From the NCBI GenBank assembly GCA_937925685.1, contig CALAMI010000010.1, positions 62,001 to 126,000 on the forward strand: a stretch of 64,000 nucleotides of DNA, in the 5' to 3' direction. Source of the stretch: Candidatus Binatia bacterium (GTDB lineage: Bacteria; Desulfobacterota; Binatia; HRBIN30). Below are positions 45,692 through 55,336 of the stretch, piece by piece. Every line of letters starts with the position of its first letter. The first letter of the stretch is position 1. The position numbers were made by a program, and so were the translations under genes. The notes under the pieces were generated by a model. That model saw nothing but the letters and a program-made list of their open reading frames with translations. It made no database searches and was not told where the DNA came from.

Positions 45692-47324
45692 GTGAACGAA
45701 TTCCGCGAGGCTTGCTCTGGGCCGCAGAAGACGCTCGCGAACAGGAGTGACTTTCTCGCCTTGTATGCATTCGAGCGTCCGCCGCAAGCGAAGCCGGTTG
45801 AAAACTTTCTCGACGAGCTTCGGACGTTAATTCGAAAACACGTGGTCTCTAGTGATCTTGCGGAGGCGTTAAAGTACGGGGGCGTGGATCGCGAAGGGAT
45901 GCGCCGCTGGGTTAAGGAGTACTACCAGTTCATTCGCCTGGATGCCCAAGGGAGCGCGGCGATGATTGCGCGATGTCCTCGGCGCGGCTTGTTTTTGGCA
46001 CTGAGTCCGATCGTCAACCGCAAGACGCGGTTTCTATCAAGTTACGGTGCCACCGCGGGATTTGTTTGTGCGCTTCGCGGAGGCCTTAGGTGTTTCGTTC
46101 TCCGAACTCGAGCAACATTACCCATGCCCGGAGACGCTGCAAGCAAAGTACGCGCGGTTACAGTTCCAGTTCGATACGTTTAGTGCCGGTTTTTCTGTGA
46201 CCGTGCTGGGAGCCGAGGGGGTTCTAGTAGACGTCGTGCGAGATGAGCGCCCGTGGTTGGGCCAGAGAGGAATTGCCGAGTATATGAAACGGGCTTTTGG
46301 CCTGAGTGACGACGCGGTGGCGTACTGGCGAGCCTATGAAGACTTCCGCAGCTTTGCCTGCGAACCAGTTTGGGAAATCGCTGCCGAGTTTGCGCGTGAC
46401 GGTAGCGAACAGCAAACAATTCAAAGTGCACTCCACCATTGGTTGCTGTTGTACGGCAACATGCATCGAGCTTGGGCGGAAATCGTTCGCGGTGAGTGCA
46501 CCTTTCCAGAAATTGTCTGGCCACCTCCGCCGTCGAGGTTTCAGACTGGCGTACAACAAACACACGAGGAAATGGACGAAGAACTCGGCGAGTTTTGCCT
46601 GGCGCTTCCGCAACCCGAAGAAACCGCCTTCGGTTTCCTGCTCGCGGGTAAAGCTACCCTGCTAGCCGCGAAAGAGCTGATCAAGGACTTTATCCACATG
46701 GATGCTACACGAAATATTGCGGGACAGTGCAGTCGCATTGCGCATGGGAGAGCGTTACGGGCGATCAGTCAGGCCTTCGCGACGGAATCCGGGGGTTACT
46801 CGACCCGGAACCACATGGAAATCTGGGCTGACTTTGCCGAACGTGCGTGCGGTATCACGCGGCGCGAACTGTTCGAGTGGCTGCCGCTTACGGAAACTCT
46901 CGGCAGCGGCTACGTCACGAAGTGGTTCCTCCTCCATTGTCCTGCAGAGGAAGCGATTGCGGCTTTCCATCTCGGCCCGCCACCGGCGGCGAAGGCGAAG
47001 TTAGGAAAGCGGGCACTCGGGATCGGACAAGGAGGAGCGGCTGGTGAAGGGTTACTCGAGGCACGTCCGGGTAGGCACCCGTTAACCGTGGCATTCGAGC
47101 AGCTGGGTCTCGATGCCGACCTCGCCGACTACTTCTTTCGCCTCCATCGAGAAATCGAACCATTGGAGCAAGAGGAAGGTTGGGAGTACGTTCCAGAGGT
47201 TGTTCGCACGCACGAACAAAGGCAACGCTTCAAACGGGCTTATATAGAGAAGATTCTGGCTGAGTCGCGTAAGGATGAAGCCTTGCTCCGCCGAATGAAG
47301 CAGCTCTCTGGGGCGTCAGGGTGA
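45692..47324 (+). pseudogene. TenA/PqqC-like (haem-oxygenase-fold) tandem protein, one frameshift
   Basis: Start is the GTG at 45692, 7 nt after GGGAG. The first frame reads through MRRWVKEYYQFIRLDAQGSA and GLFLALSPIVNRKTRF, then loses sense near 46031-46038 (TTTCTATC). The frame one base further continues at once with QVTVPPRDLFVRFAEALGVS and runs to 47324. One inserted base would explain it. The joined protein of about 543 residues seems to have two helical haem-oxygenase-like halves; the second has NHMEIWADFAERACGI and LTETLGSGYVTKWF. Iron-containing redox enzymes (CADD, UndA, PqqC) share this fold. The function is unknown. It ends overlapping the converging membrane protein gene by 9 nt. 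Confidence 0.75.
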
Positions 47325-50219
47325 ACCCGCGTACACCTCACGAGCGTGGACGTCAAGCTCGATCCGCCGGAGTACTTCGATTTCGTTATCTCGGGTCCAT
47401 GCCGCGAGGTCTCCGTTGATTACGAAGCGTCGAAAGCCGAAACCATGGAAAGGCTTCCCCTCGCGAGTGAATACCCACGGGGCTTTTGAGTGCGGGTGGT
47501 ACAAGAGTGCTCCGGCAGGGCTGTAGACTGGACGCCCTCGTTTCCATTGCAGGATGTACAAGTTCTGATCACCGTCACAATTAAGTTCAGACTCCCACCA
47601 GACATGGGGAACTGCCTTGGAGCTGAGAAGCTGGCCAGTCGGGCTGTAAGACAACAGCTCCGCAAGTGTGGCATCGAGTACGTAGATGCGGTTGTGGCAA
47701 CGCTCGACAGCAACCGGCCGAGGTAACGGGCGGCCGAAACGGTCCAACAGGAAGATCTCTTCTCCGGTTTCGAGCCACAGACGAGCATCGCCACAGAGCG
47801 CCGTGAGGGGGCCACTGCTTTTGGCAATCTGTCTGACTGCGCATGGCAGTGGGAAAACTGCGAGCAACTCGTCATCCTTCCAGCGGTGCCAGTTCCCGTC
47901 CCGGCCGACGATATCGACGCCGTCCGTTGTGCATCGCAGAGAAGGGTCGGGCGCGACGACGGTGGTTAATGCGGTGGTGTGACCGGACAGCACATCAATC
48001 CGGTAAAGGTGCTGCCCGATCAGCACGAAGAGGTTGTGATCCGGACAAAACGCCATGTCCCAAATTTGGCCTGGTAAAGGGACCGTTCGATTGACACTCC
48101 ACTCGAAAACAGCCTGGTGAGCAGGAGGAGCGAGATGGCTCCTCAACAGTGAATTGGCCTCCGCTTCGGTAACGGCGATGAGATAGTGGTCTAGCGCTTC
48201 CCAGCCTAAGCCAAAACGACGGACCTGCCAGCCAGTCCAACTCCATCCTTGCCATGGAAGCTCGACGGGATGATACCCTCGGTCTAAATACAGTAGGCCG
48301 CTGAGCGGAACGGATTGGTGAAGGGTTGCTGGCGCATCTCCGGGCACCAACCTTCTAAATTCGTAAAGTCCTGGTTCGGGTGCCCAAAACAAGGCGTCTG
48401 TGAAAAAAAGCCTATCGCTCGAGGCGAAGCGTCGTTGCAGCGCCGTGGACGGGATTCGGATGTCAAGCGCCAGAAGGGTGGGCTCGGGGTCGTTCCATGG
48501 AGGGGGCGCAAAAAGTTCGCTCCTCGTGGTGCCAGGATAAAGGGCTTGCCAACTTGGCAACAATCGTTGCTCGATGTGGATCGATGGTGGAACGATCAGA
48601 CGCAGCGGCTGGCCAGGGATGAATTGAACTGGGGCAAACAATATTGAGTCCGAGTACACACGTCCCAGCCCGTGGAGCCAACGATAGCTGGGCAGATGGA
48701 CACCGAGCAAAAGGGCTTCCTCTTCGAAGTCGCGCCCAGGTTCGCCCGCTGGTACGGCGCAGGTTCCGTCTCGGATGCAGCTTTGCCAGTGGGGAAGCAA
48801 AAGGAAAGCAAGCCCTTGCGGATGTCGGGGAGAACGAAACATCGTGTAAGCCCAAATGCGAAAGAATCGCTCCACACTGGCGAAGCCGAAATAGCCCCAC
48901 GCCAGGATGAAGAGTGCTAAGGTAGCCCATCCTAAAAAACGGGCACGTTGCTGGGAGACGCTTAGCAAGGTGGCGAATCCGGTCCCTGCGAAGAGAAACA
49001 ACGGGAGGAAAATAGCAATAACATAGAACTCGTTAGCTATGGCGATCAGCAGCCCGAGGAGATTGACTGCGAACAGAACCAAGAGAGTTAACGACGAGAC
49101 TTCTCGCCGAGCCCGACGGAGGATGATACCAAAACCAAGGAGGGCACCGCCACGGAGGAGGTAATCGAGCACCGCTGGCGGCACGTTGGCGTTGCCGCCG
49201 GCTGAGAACAGGGCTTTACCGAGGAAGGCGGCGTTGTGGAGAAGTTTTTCCAGCAATGTTTCTGCACCTACGCGCACGGGACGTAGGCCCGCACTTACGT
49301 ACGAGAGTCCCTCCGGCGCGCGTGCCACCGCCACAATTGCGGGTAAACTAAGGAGAACGGTCAGAATTGCCGCACCAATGGCAGGCCGACGAACCTCTTG
49401 CCATTCCTTTGGGTGTGTCCACGCAAAAAACAGCATAAGCAGCGCGGCAAACGGAGGTAGGAGGTAGAGCGCCCAATAAGCGTGCAGTCCCCCGGCGATC
49501 CCAACCGCCGCAATCCAGAACCCATACCTGTCCTTGTCGCGCAAACCCTTCACGAGCCCACCCACTGCGATCGCTTGGAAAAAAGGCGTTAAAAACTGGT
49601 GATAACCGTTGCGAGTGGCCCAAACGTGCCACCATGAAGTGGCAACCAAGGCGGTGGTAATCCACGCGGCCCTCGCTCCGAACAACACCCACGCGCACCA
49701 AGCCACCGCTGTGGCCGTCGCCAGGCTGATGAGAATTTGCGCGACTCGGAGCGCTGTTAGCGGATCGTGGACGAAAATTCTCACCGTGGCAATCACGTAA
49801 GAGAACAACGTGTGCGCGTACCACGCATAAGGCTCGTACGGAAAACCTCGAGCACGTAAGTATTCGGCGAAATTGACGAAATTCAGCACCTCTCCGAGGT
49901 AGCCAGCGGGGACGGTCTGCCAATAACAGAGCCGGAACCACGTCGTCACAACTAGTGCTGCAGTGAGTCCCAGCCACACCTCCGAACGCCCACAAGAGAT
50001 CGTTGTCGCCTCGTGGGGAAGAGCGACAGCGCTTAGAGTAATGGCAGCGATTGCCAGAAGGGCCGAAGCCCAAAAAACGTTCACCATCGGAGAAACGCTT
50101 ACCGCTGCCGCAAGGAGTGCGATCCAGAGTCCTAACAATCTAAACATCGTATCGCGCCACCTTCGAGATCGTTCCGCGACGGTTACCAAGCCGCCTTGCT
50201 TCGCCTCGGTCGCCTGCAC
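47316..50219 (-). CDS. large membrane protein: GT-C-like N-terminal half with beta-propeller-like C-terminal half
   Basis: 967 residues from a GTG at 50219; an ATG at the MFRLLGLW position (about residue 25) is a plausible later start. Roughly the first 450 residues hold about ten hydrophobic segments in the pattern of family 39-type glycosyltransferases: a first loop with VPAGYLGEVLNF, a YEPYAWYAHTLFSYV stretch and RNGYHQFLTPFF. The rest is soluble, with an extracytoplasmic middle (about 470-680) and a tail of strand-rich repeats (WDMAFCPDHNLFVLIG, RIYVLDATLAELLSYSP, LYILQWKRGRPVYSPAG) like NHL propellers. It may transfer lipid-linked sugars; neither substrate nor tail role can be read. No glycan cluster is adjacent. 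Confidence 0.7.
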   Translation of the reverse strand: MQATEAKQGGLVTVAERSRRWRDTMFRLLGLWIALLAAAVSVSPMVNVFWASALLAIAAITLSAVALPHEATTISCGRSEVWLGLTAALVVTTWFRLCYWQTVPAGYLGEVLNFVNFAEYLRARGFPYEPYAWYAHTLFSYVIATVRIFVHDPLTALRVAQILISLATATAVAWCAWVLFGARAAWITTALVATSWWHVWATRNGYHQFLTPFFQAIAVGGLVKGLRDKDRYGFWIAAVGIAGGLHAYWALYLLPPFAALLMLFFAWTHPKEWQEVRRPAIGAAILTVLLSLPAIVAVARAPEGLSYVSAGLRPVRVGAETLLEKLLHNAAFLGKALFSAGGNANVPPAVLDYLLRGGALLGFGIILRRARREVSSLTLLVLFAVNLLGLLIAIANEFYVIAIFLPLFLFAGTGFATLLSVSQQRARFLGWATLALFILAWGYFGFASVERFFRIWAYTMFRSPRHPQGLAFLLLPHWQSCIRDGTCAVPAGEPGRDFEEEALLLGVHLPSYRWLHGLGRVYSDSILFAPVQFIPGQPLRLIVPPSIHIEQRLLPSWQALYPGTTRSELFAPPPWNDPEPTLLALDIRIPSTALQRRFASSDRLFFTDALFWAPEPGLYEFRRLVPGDAPATLHQSVPLSGLLYLDRGYHPVELPWQGWSWTGWQVRRFGLGWEALDHYLIAVTEAEANSLLRSHLAPPAHQAVFEWSVNRTVPLPGQIWDMAFCPDHNLFVLIGQHLYRIDVLSGHTTALTTVVAPDPSLRCTTDGVDIVGRDGNWHRWKDDELLAVFPLPCAVRQIAKSSGPLTALCGDARLWLETGEEIFLLDRFGRPLPRPVAVERCHNRIYVLDATLAELLSYSPTGQLLSSKAVPHVWWESELNCDGDQNLYILQWKRGRPVYSPAGALLYHPHSKAPWVFTREGKPFHGFGFRRFVINGDLAAWTRDNEIEVLRRIELDVHAREVYAGSP

Positions 50220-51759: not shown

Positions 51760-52833
51760 CTATGCAGGGAGGCCGTAAAACCGCGTGGCGTTGACGCCAA
51801 AAATCTTTTCTTTCACCGCGGCCGAGAGATCGCTTCGCTGGCGGAGCGGACGGGTCGACTCCGGCCATTCGCTGTCCCAGTGCGGGTAATCACTGGCGTA
51901 CAGAATAAAATCCGGGCCGAGCTGCTCCACCGCCAAAGGTATCGCGCACTCTCCTGCTTCGCAGCTCACGTACAGCTGCCCTCGGGCGATATACTCTTTC
52001 GGCTCGTGTTTGCATTCCGGGGTTAGACGACCGCGTTTTTCCAAATGCTCTTCAATCCGTTCCATGAAATATGGTACCCAACCAACTCCCGACTCGAGCA
52101 ACGCTACCCGCAATCGTGGGTGCCTCTCAAGGACGCCGCCGAGGATGAGGGCAGTGGAAGCGACCATCATATCGAAGGGGAAGCTAATGACGTGCACTTT
52201 GAGGTAGTTATCGAATCGCTCTGTCCCCAGTTTCGGCAGATGTATACCAGGGGCTCCGTGAATGCCGAGAGGCATGTCGAGCTCTTCCGCAGCGGAGTAA
52301 AAAGGGTCGAGATCAGGGTGGTCGAGGTTTCGCTCTCGCAGCACGGCCGGGATCATGGTAACAACCAAGCCAAGAGCTTTGGCCTCGCTCATGATTTCAA
52401 CAGAAGCCTCTATGTCCTCGATGGGCACGAGGGCAGCACCGTAGAATCGGCCCCTGCCCTGCTTGCAATATTGGACAAGCCAGCGGTTGTACGTACGGGC
52501 AAACTCGGCAGCGAACTTGGTATCGATGAAACCAGGCAGCCCCAGCGCTGCGCTTGGGAAGAACACCAAGCGATCGATCCCATCCTTATCGGCGTCGGCT
52601 AGTACACCCTCGGGCGTGAAAGGGTTAGCCCCCCGGTCCAGGCACATGCCTTCCTCGGCGCGACAACCTGCACCTGGTCCCTGGGACTGGGGATAGGGCC
52701 GACCCTCGATGAAGAGAGCGGTCTCTCGATCGCCGGGGGCACTAAAACGAATTTTGTCCGGAAACCGCTCGATGAGTTCCTGAATCAGTTCGCGTCCCTC
52801 CACGACGTGCGCATCGGCATCGACAACCTGCAT
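51760..52833 (-). CDS. amidohydrolase family protein (PF04909-like)
   Basis: 357 residues. Amidohydrolase-2 features are VVDADAHVVEG (first metal site), LGIHGAPGIH, LLESGVGWVPYFMERIEEH and YASDYPHWDSEWP. It resembles the protein at 37166-38236 in length and motif layout, in particular the (E/D)xGVGW and YASDY-HWD stretches, so the two are paralogues. It may hydrolyse or decarboxylate a ring-derived acid. The ATG lies opposite the upstream end of the divergent caspase-like gene. Confidence 0.9.
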   Translation of the reverse strand: MQVVDADAHVVEGRELIQELIERFPDKIRFSAPGDRETALFIEGRPYPQSQGPGAGCRAEEGMCLDRGANPFTPEGVLADADKDGIDRLVFFPSAALGLPGFIDTKFAAEFARTYNRWLVQYCKQGRGRFYGAALVPIEDIEASVEIMSEAKALGLVVTMIPAVLRERNLDHPDLDPFYSAAEELDMPLGIHGAPGIHLPKLGTERFDNYLKVHVISFPFDMMVASTALILGGVLERHPRLRVALLESGVGWVPYFMERIEEHLEKRGRLTPECKHEPKEYIARGQLYVSCEAGECAIPLAVEQLGPDFILYASDYPHWDSEWPESTRPLRQRSDLSAAVKEKIFGVNATRFYGLPA

Positions 52834-52969: not shown

Positions 52970-55336
52970 GTGTTAGTCGAGAGATTAGGCGTTGTTTCGC
53001 GGGAGGGGCCTAAGCATGTGATCGGTGTCCTCGTCTGCACTGTGTTGCTCCTGGCATGTCGCGGCACACTGGTGGAACCGGGGGTGCAAGCAGTGCCTGC
53101 CGGGCGCTTGGAAAGTCCTTTGGACCAGGCGCGACTGCACGTGCTCATGTTGAACGGCGGTGGGAGGAAGGAGCAAAATTACCGCTCCCATCTGCTTCAC
53201 TTGGCGCATGCGGCGCAGCTTCTGCAAGCGGCCGGGGTGCCTTTGGAAAATTTCGCCGTCTTCAGTGGTGATGGGGAGAACCCGGAACCTGATTTGGCCG
53301 TGCGGCAGCGTCAACCGCGGGGTAAACACTTCTGGCTGGTCGAGGGCACTCCGGCTTTAGCGTGGTTGCGGGCGCCAGTGGAGTACCAGAACACCACCCT
53401 TGCACCATTTAAAATCATGCCTGCAACCCGTGAAGCCTTGGCCGAGTGGTTCACTGCGGCGAAGCTTCGCCTCAAGCCTGGTGATACGTTGTTCTTGTTC
53501 GTCACGGACCACGGAACCAAAAACGACAAAGATCCGGGAAATAACTTCATCATGCTTTGGGGCCATCAAGCGCAGCTTTCAGTGGACGAACTTCGCGCCT
53601 GGTTACTGGAACTTGATCCAGAAGTGAGGGTAGTGATGCTAATGTCCCAGTGCTTTTCTGGAGCGTTCGCCAGGCTGACGTGGACGCGCACCGAGAGAGA
53701 CGAGCCCGCGGGCAACGTCTGTGGGTTCTTTGCCTCTACCTCAGAGCGCCGCGCTTACGGTTGCTACCCTGAAAACCTCGGGAGAAACAATGTGGGCCAC
53801 GCCTTCCACATGCTTCGAGGGTGGGTGCACGACCGCAGCTTATACCGTGCTCATGACAGGGTGTTGTCCGCAGACGATACGCCGGACGTACCCATTCGCA
53901 CCTCTGACCTTTACCTGGAGTCGTTGCTACGGCGGTATGCGGAGGCGAAGCGGATAAGCATCGACGACGCCGCTGATGCTCTGTTGCACGAAGCATGGCT
54001 GGCGAAGGAACGCTGGGAGTCCGATCTTCGCCTACTCGACAGCATTGGCCAGGCGTATGGCATGTTTTCTGCCCGCTCTTTAGCGGAATTAGCCCAGCGG
54101 AGCGTTCGACTTACGGAGGTTGCCGATCAGCTGCGAAACGTGAGTCGCTCTTGGAGGGGTGCCTGGCACGACGCCAATAGAGCAAACTGGCAGCGCTTCC
54201 TCGAACGTCACCCGCAGTGGCGCTCCCGTCTGGCTGCTCTCGATCCAGCGAAGCTGAGCAGCGAGGAGCGAGATTCCCTTGCCAAGGAGCTGTTGCCTGC
54301 GCTGCAAGCCGACACCAAACGACAACCCAAGCAGTGGGAGCGACTGCGCCGCTTGTGGTTAAACACTCGCGCGGCTGAGAGCACGAGCTACAGAATGGAA
54401 GTCAGGCAGGCAGCCTTGCTTCGGATGAGATCCATTTTATTGCGGGTCGCGGGTTTCCACTACCTCGAGGCTTACGGTTCGCCTGAAGAACGAGGAGCGC
54501 ATCGGTCACTGGTTCGTTGCGAGGATTTGGCCTTGCCTTCCGGCGAGTTTCCTGAGCCGGGAGTACGTTTGAGTCCCCCCTTCCCCGCCTTCGACGAGGA
54601 TGTTGCTCGCGCCCAAGCTGCGTTACCTGCATGGCTGGGTATCCAATTTCGGCCACCGAACGAAGACCTCGTGCGAGCCAAACGCTTGCCCGAAGGAGCC
54701 GCAACAGTGGTAACTGTGTATCCCGGTTCTCCAGCGCAAGCTGCCGGCTTGGAGCCAGGCGACATTGTCTTAGGTATTCCAGGGCAGCCATTCTTGGAAA
54801 AGGGCGAGGTTCGTAGTTGGGTCATGCTTTCGACGCCGGGAGAGGCGCTCGAGTTGGAGATTTTCCGTCAGGAGCAGCGCCGAACGGTGAGGGTGGTTGC
54901 GGGAGCGTATCCGCTACGCTGGCCGTCGCTGCCGGGGCCACCGAAGGTTGGAAGTATGGCCCCGCCACTTGAGGTTGTCGCCTATCGCGGCAACGTCCCT
55001 CAGCAGCTCGGCTCTGGTCGCAGCTATTTGCTGTTTTTCTGGGCTACCTGGTGCGGGGCCTGTAAAGCGTCACTGGAGCAGGTGCTGGCATTTGCCGAGA
55101 AAACTGGAACCGAGGTGGTGGCCATCACTGACGAATCCCGCACGCAGGTAGACGCTTTTTTCCAACGGTATCAAGGTGCGTTTCCGTCGATTGTTGCGAT
55201 TGATGAATTTCGCAAGGCGTTTGTGGCTTACGGTGTGAGCGGTACGCCGACATTCGTCGTCATTGACGGGGACGGGCGGGTACAGGGTACGTACGTTGGC
55301 TACGATGCAAAGCGCGGCCTTCCGTTCGGGAGATAG
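52970..55336 (+). CDS. lipoprotein fusing caspase-like, PDZ and thioredoxin (TlpA-like) domains
   Basis: 788 residues from the GTG at 52970, chosen because it gives a basic n-region before a lipobox (VLLLAC, C30). A GTG at 53018 follows GGGAGGGG but leaves no charge before the hydrophobic part. Residues 55-260 look like a clan CD (caspase/legumain-type) peptidase: LHVLMLNGGG, FLFVTDHGTKND (His H181) and VMLMSQCFSGAF (Cys C228). After a helical middle comes a PDZ domain (about 570-640: VVTVYPGSPAQAAGLEPGDIV and LGIPGQPFLEKGEV). The end is a TlpA/ResA-like thioredoxin with WCGAC (C695, C698) and the cis-Pro SGTPTF. It should be anchored in the periplasm or outer membrane. I know of no named family with this order. 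Confidence 0.78.
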   Translation: MLVERLGVVSREGPKHVIGVLVCTVLLLACRGTLVEPGVQAVPAGRLESPLDQARLHVLMLNGGGRKEQNYRSHLLHLAHAAQLLQAAGVPLENFAVFSGDGENPEPDLAVRQRQPRGKHFWLVEGTPALAWLRAPVEYQNTTLAPFKIMPATREALAEWFTAAKLRLKPGDTLFLFVTDHGTKNDKDPGNNFIMLWGHQAQLSVDELRAWLLELDPEVRVVMLMSQCFSGAFARLTWTRTERDEPAGNVCGFFASTSERRAYGCYPENLGRNNVGHAFHMLRGWVHDRSLYRAHDRVLSADDTPDVPIRTSDLYLESLLRRYAEAKRISIDDAADALLHEAWLAKERWESDLRLLDSIGQAYGMFSARSLAELAQRSVRLTEVADQLRNVSRSWRGAWHDANRANWQRFLERHPQWRSRLAALDPAKLSSEERDSLAKELLPALQADTKRQPKQWERLRRLWLNTRAAESTSYRMEVRQAALLRMRSILLRVAGFHYLEAYGSPEERGAHRSLVRCEDLALPSGEFPEPGVRLSPPFPAFDEDVARAQAALPAWLGIQFRPPNEDLVRAKRLPEGAATVVTVYPGSPAQAAGLEPGDIVLGIPGQPFLEKGEVRSWVMLSTPGEALELEIFRQEQRRTVRVVAGAYPLRWPSLPGPPKVGSMAPPLEVVAYRGNVPQQLGSGRSYLLFFWATWCGACKASLEQVLAFAEKTGTEVVAITDESRTQVDAFFQRYQGAFPSIVAIDEFRKAFVAYGVSGTPTFVVIDGDGRVQGTYVGYDAKRGLPFGR

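Follow-up and report, generated by a model that had tools for sequence, protein, structure and literature searches.

The window, that is, the whole 64,000-nucleotide stretch of DNA that was analyzed, carries on its forward strand a real open reading frame at positions 52970-55336, which encodes a protein of 788 residues when read from the GTG codon at 52970. The gene has the following features:

52970-55336, forward strand: whole gene, encoding a predicted lipoprotein composed of a C13-like peptidase, a helical arm, a PDZ domain and a thioredoxin domain (Pfam, dN/dS)
52970-53059, forward strand: signal peptide with lipobox L-L-A-C and the lipid-anchor residue Cys30 (sequence; start at GTG 52970 or GTG 53018)
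53123-54004, forward strand: C13/legumain-like peptidase, residues 52-345, in which N70, H181 and C228 correspond to legumain Asn42, His148 and Cys189 (Pfam, profile alignment, AlphaFold)
53510-53515, forward strand: catalytic His181-Gly182 (invariant in 47 of 47 members; aligned with legumain His148)
53651-53662, forward strand: nucleophile motif C228-F-S-G (C228 invariant in 47 of 47 members and 16 of 16 unfused relatives)
53720-53764, forward strand: C251 to C265 segment (CGFFASTSERRAYGC), aligned with the S1/S3 pocket region of legumain (both cysteines in 47 of 47 members and 16 of 16 unfused relatives)
54005-54523, forward strand: helical arm, residues 346-518 (all-helical from about residue 311), ending in C517-E518 (model; no Pfam family)
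54635-54895, forward strand: HtrA-type PDZ domain, residues 556-642 (Pfam PDZ_2 and PDZ_6; DegP/MucD matches)
54932-55315, forward strand: TlpA/ResA/DsbE-type thioredoxin, residues 655-782, with W-C-G-A-C at 694-698 and cis-proline P760 (Pfam Redoxin/AhpC-TSA, structures)

The GTG at 53018, which has GGGAGGGG ahead of it, is an alternative start codon, and an in-frame ATG lies further upstream at 52832, but abuts the start of a divergent amidohydrolase gene. We are therefore unsure of the exact N-terminus of the protein; the domains are unaffected by the choice of start codon. An earlier note made from the DNA sequence had described a signal peptide with a lipobox, and this was borne out, the lipobox LLAC being residues 27-30. 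The Cys30 column holds cysteine in 23 of 37 family members (the remaining members have other N-termini), and the protein is predicted to be exported and, across the family, mostly lipid-anchored. The gene is under purifying selection, with a dN/dS of 0.06 against the same-genus homologue L027, a comparison in which dS is saturated. The host is represented by a 3.7-Mb draft genome. Judged by this gene its closest named relative is bacterium HR30 (70% identity across the C-terminal part); HRbin30 we take to be a member of the Binatia. Elsewhere in the window the reverse strand (47316-50219) encodes a 967-residue protein, rich in apparent membrane segments and with an extended C-terminal part, that has no Pfam match.

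The N-terminal domain had been assigned in the earlier note to the caspase/legumain clan, and this assignment can be sharpened to a C13/legumain-like peptidase. Peptidase_C13 (PF01650) matches residues 63-275 with an E value of 2.6e-8 (34.2 bits against a gathering score of 22.8), and all 12 of the family members scanned match it at E values of 0.01 or less. The top PDB match for the family profile was human legumain (E 1.5e-4), and in this alignment N70 falls on Asn42, H181 on His148 and C228 on Cys189, such that H181 and C228 align with the legumain catalytic dyad. These are the three residues of the legumain triad (PMC9604545), and all three are invariant in 47 of 47 members. An AlphaFold model of residues 40-788, built from a 12-sequence alignment, had a mean pLDDT of 87.6. 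Its N-terminal part superimposed on prolegumain 4nok with a Z score of 20.6 (224 residues, rmsd 3.0); the next structural matches after the legumains were metacaspases and the GPI transamidase subunit (Z 18.7), with plant ligases at Z about 20. Hence, the model and the alignments place the N-terminal domain in the clan CD fold and make it C13/legumain-like. Of the two checks that the earlier note had put forward, the fold thus favors its assignment directly, and the alignment with the legumain dyad favors indirectly that H181 and C228 lie close together. The intact Asn-His-Cys triad, taken with the predicted fold, predicts a C13-type cysteine peptidase. H181-G182, C228-F-S-G, CGAC at 695-698 and cis-proline P760 were all found where the note had placed them.

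The relationship to legumain (asparaginyl endopeptidase, MEROPS C13) thus comprises the fold, the triad and the T-D-H-G motif, together with a cysteine beside the substrate pockets, since C265 aligns with the cysteine of the YAC motif of the human enzyme. The two proteins differ in their S1 pockets. Glu187 and Asp231 of human legumain, which we take to be the equivalents of plant Glu217 and Asp269, are replaced by Ser226 and His277, and this replacement is conserved family-wide. In plant legumain Glu217 and Asp269 make up the acidic S1 pocket (PMC5995516). The absence of these acidic residues makes asparagine specificity unlikely, so that P1 is probably a residue other than asparagine. The proteins also differ in that the one described here is a bacterial lipoprotein, and probably in the C-terminal region, where legumain has a prodomain: the PF01650 match stops at residue 275, beyond which lie a helical arm having no clear PDB or Pfam match, the PDZ domain and the thioredoxin. 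One homologue, L188 (1897-4311, reverse strand), has glutamine in place of the catalytic His181, with SSQG where the histidine motif should be and a normal thioredoxin CxxC, and is possibly a pseudoenzyme.

The arm, about 200 residues between peptidase and PDZ domain, was absent from the earlier note, as were C251, C265 and C517. It is confidently modeled (pLDDT 90.9 for residues 309-535), and searches for relatives found neither a Pfam family nor a convincing PDB match. We claim no kinship to a known fold, since the best Foldseek E value was 0.2 and VIA-align Z scores were at most 8.3, the chance range for helical bundles. Within the arm only C517 and E518 are invariant (26 aligned members), and the Cys-Glu motif is present in every complete protein among the 93 homologues collected. 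C251 and C265 are invariant in 47 of 47 members, and C517 is present in every member that reaches its column. Following the lipid-bearing Cys30 the protein has exactly six thiols (C228, C251, C265, C517 and the CGAC pair), all conserved family-wide, and 38 of 45 members have no cysteine of the mature part outside these six columns. Because no protein has just one of C251 and C265, even where the thioredoxin is lacking, the simplest guess is a disulfide between C251 and C265, or between one of these and C517.

The PDZ domain and the TlpA-like thioredoxin reported in the earlier note were both recovered above curated cut-offs, PDZ_2 at residues 556-642 (E 3.9e-10) and Redoxin at residues 678-780 (E 3.8e-12), and the thioredoxin part of the model matched DsbE 3gl3 (Z 17.1) and ResA (Z 16.0). 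The domain is a TlpA/ResA-type thioredoxin by sequence and model, with CxxC and cis-proline, and is predicted to have reductase activity. It shares fold, WCxxC and cis-proline with the periplasmic thioredoxins TlpA, ResA and DsbE and differs from them in being fused to a peptidase and in its very variable CxxC dipeptide: 64 of 65 domains retain CxxC, yet its two inner residues vary freely to give 24 different motifs (CGPC, CAPC, CVIC and others). The thioredoxin domain of L171 (3489-6005, forward strand) contains no cysteine at all; the four peptidase cysteines of this protein are intact. The PDZ type, export and envelope location are shared with the HtrA/DegP envelope proteases, whereas DegP belongs to the serine proteases, has a different fold and lacks a thioredoxin. 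By their family name, the Trx7/PDZ (seleno)proteins (NF041199) likewise combine thioredoxin and PDZ in a single chain; neither the name nor the model length points to a peptidase, and the match covers only the PDZ domain and scored 18.8 bits against a cut-off of 300.

The order peptidase-arm-PDZ-thioredoxin is common, being complete in 64 of the 93 homologues, from Binatia-like and Myxococcota genomes. These full-length homologues rule out a one-off fusion or an assembly artefact. Strong matches were found in 39 of 148 genomes of the class, and a small deep lineage ("Myxococcota" in its records) of only five genomes has at least three matches in each. In another phylum, reached via a record labeled Myxococcales, a sample of 379 genomes gave matches in 82, of which about 25 were strong. 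Four early weak matches (L055-L058) were set aside as other caspase-like or C13-like proteins that lack the family features. Searches for plasmid copies gave no match and no viral contig was confirmed, so a mobile element origin was rejected, as was a defense system (no PADLOC match). A fused copy at L176:3088-9999 (reverse strand, G643) lies in an open frame approaching 3000 codons, putatively a single protein whose N-terminal part is long, repetitive and of low complexity. The earlier note knew of no described family with this domain order, and we likewise found no paper describing a C13/PDZ/thioredoxin protein in the open-licence PMC literature; each module is known, and in those papers we found no description of the combined family, its four-cysteine relatives or the arm.

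Sixteen distant relatives from Myxococcota-type genomes (L191-L206) are lipoproteins that have the peptidase domain and no detectable PDZ or thioredoxin, and their chains end just past the Cys-Glu motif (Leu-x-x-Cys-Glu type). Sequence identity to the fused proteins is low (two of five scanned matched PF01650 weakly, below the cut-off, and the other three not at all), but C228, C251, C265 and C517 are all kept, and most of these proteins hold no further cysteine. In a tree of fused and unfused homologues, made by a quick method that gave a warning on one long branch, a strongly supported branch separates L191-L206 from every PDZ/thioredoxin form, which fits a single acquisition. Thus, the four-cysteine peptidase with its arm is probably the older unit, which the PDZ-thioredoxin part joined once. 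Alternatively, the unfused group may have undergone one loss of PDZ and thioredoxin, as the root of the tree is not independently fixed.

Within the fused group the thioredoxin was lost in a clade of six (L046, L109-L112 and L167), five of which form one clade at 100/98 in a careful tree, and it is absent or degraded in L178, L186 and L187. L021 has lost the PDZ domain and kept a complete thioredoxin. The homologue L027 lacks a thioredoxin solely because its contig ends, and is not a loss. By these sequences the thioredoxin has been lost at least two times and the PDZ domain once, with the four cysteines kept throughout. C251, C265 and C517 persist both in the unfused relatives and in members that lack the thioredoxin. 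We therefore rejected the idea that these residues arose to serve the thioredoxin; the cysteines can be of use in its absence.

Genes for a VKOR-DsbA fusion, further DsbA and a DsbD are present in the window genome, and thus both oxidizing and reducing power exist in the envelope. The VKOR and DsbA domains lie within a single 406-residue open frame (G000:C16:111360-112502; L122, L123). CcmH was present in 134 and DsbD in 140 of the 148 genomes of the class, regardless of whether the C13 gene was there. Their presence therefore tells nothing, and co-occurrence of the C13 gene with either was discarded as uninformative.

The conserved cysteines suggest an extracytoplasmic protease under redox control. 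The explanation that we consider best, at a little under an even chance, is that a tethered thioredoxin recharged by DsbD reduces C228 and thereby keeps the peptidase active or turns it on, with the PDZ domain recruiting substrates. In such a scheme the oxidizing envelope (VKOR-DsbA) would oxidize the peptidase thiols, and C228 would be held inactive or trapped in a disulfide or another oxidized form. DsbD would then recharge the tethered thioredoxin, which would reduce C228, and the PDZ domain would recruit substrate termini or exposed segments; the thioredoxin would be an in-cis helper added to an older four-cysteine peptidase. In favor of this explanation are the C13 assignment with its triad, the conservation of all six thiols, the CxxC in 64 of 65 domains, the encoding of both oxidase and reductant, the probable single acquisition of PDZ and thioredoxin and the TlpA/CcmH neighbors in four of the five deep-lineage genomes. 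There are also precedents: a redox-sensitive disulfide lines the S3 pocket of plant legumain (PMC5995516), and S-nitrosylated caspase-3, of the same clan, is reactivated by thioredoxin (PMC9598160). Against it are at least two losses of the thioredoxin, the cysteine-free L171 domain and the unfused relatives with the same four cysteines. As the thioredoxin has been lost repeatedly it is not obligatory, which argues against strict dependence. Of the proposals in the earlier note, reduction of the peptidase cysteine by the thioredoxin is plausible, and a self-contained redox-gated protease is possible. A more specific form, in which oxidized C228 would be locked to C265 or C517 and released by the protein's own DsbD-charged thioredoxin, we regard as unlikely.

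The main rival to redox activation, which we hold to be somewhat unlikely, is quality control by a reduce-and-cut reaction: the PDZ domain would catch mis-oxidized envelope proteins, the thioredoxin would act on the substrate by opening its disulfides and the C13 domain would cleave it. A PDZ of HtrA type, as in envelope quality-control proteases, is consistent with this, as is the joint appearance of PDZ and thioredoxin at the root of the fused group, and loss of thioredoxin from proteins with an intact peptidase suits a substrate-specific helper better than an obligatory activator. However, L021 lacks the PDZ domain yet has a complete thioredoxin.

Gene order in the deep lineage raises another alternative. 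In L012, L014, L015 and L018 genes for an adenosine deaminase, a TlpA/CcmG-like thioredoxin and a CcmH-like protein precede the C13 gene on one strand (L014 and L015 are near-duplicates, such that these are three distinct sublineages, in four of the five genomes). The protein could thus be an envelope thiol-redox factor, for example in cytochrome c maturation, whose peptidase trims or clears one dedicated client. We find this very unlikely given that no TlpA/CcmH cluster was seen in the window, at other Binatia-like loci or at further Myxococcota loci, and that CcmH is near-universal in the class regardless of the C13 gene; moreover, the CcmH-like proteins carry CC rather than CxxC. No ccm genes lie near 52970-55336 in the window, and a conserved operon around the gene was rejected, none extending beyond the genus. 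The CcmH-like proteins encoded between the TlpA-like and C13 genes (L012:5906-7479, L018:5949-7574 and L014:6284-7477) have their adjacent cysteines in the sequence SPCCWTQPVS.

Some C13 proteins (GPI8/PIG-K, plant ligases) make, not merely break, peptide bonds. A transpeptidase or ligase, or a largely scaffolding protein, would accord with the fold shared with the GPI transamidase subunit and plant ligases, the S1 pocket unlike that of hydrolytic legumain and the His181 to Gln change of L188, but is the least probable of the readings, as all copies but one keep the catalytic histidine and cysteine and the analysis turned up neither a ligase-type recognition signal nor a client.

How clan CD thiol proteases such as caspases, legumain and gingipains stay active in oxidizing compartments is a general question. 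Here a reductase is tied to the protease in many genomes and has been removed in a few, with the four cysteines of the peptidase always kept. If the redox lock were real, the protein would be a bacterial clan CD protease carrying its own reductase, and its origin would lie in an older family of four-cysteine C13 lipoproteins. The natural variants (with or without thioredoxin, with a cysteine-free thioredoxin or without PDZ) lend themselves to testing redox control directly. Just downstream of the thioredoxin-less L046 lies L113, a putative short frame for a thioredoxin-fold, [2Fe-2S] ferredoxin-like protein, which starts right past the stop codon.
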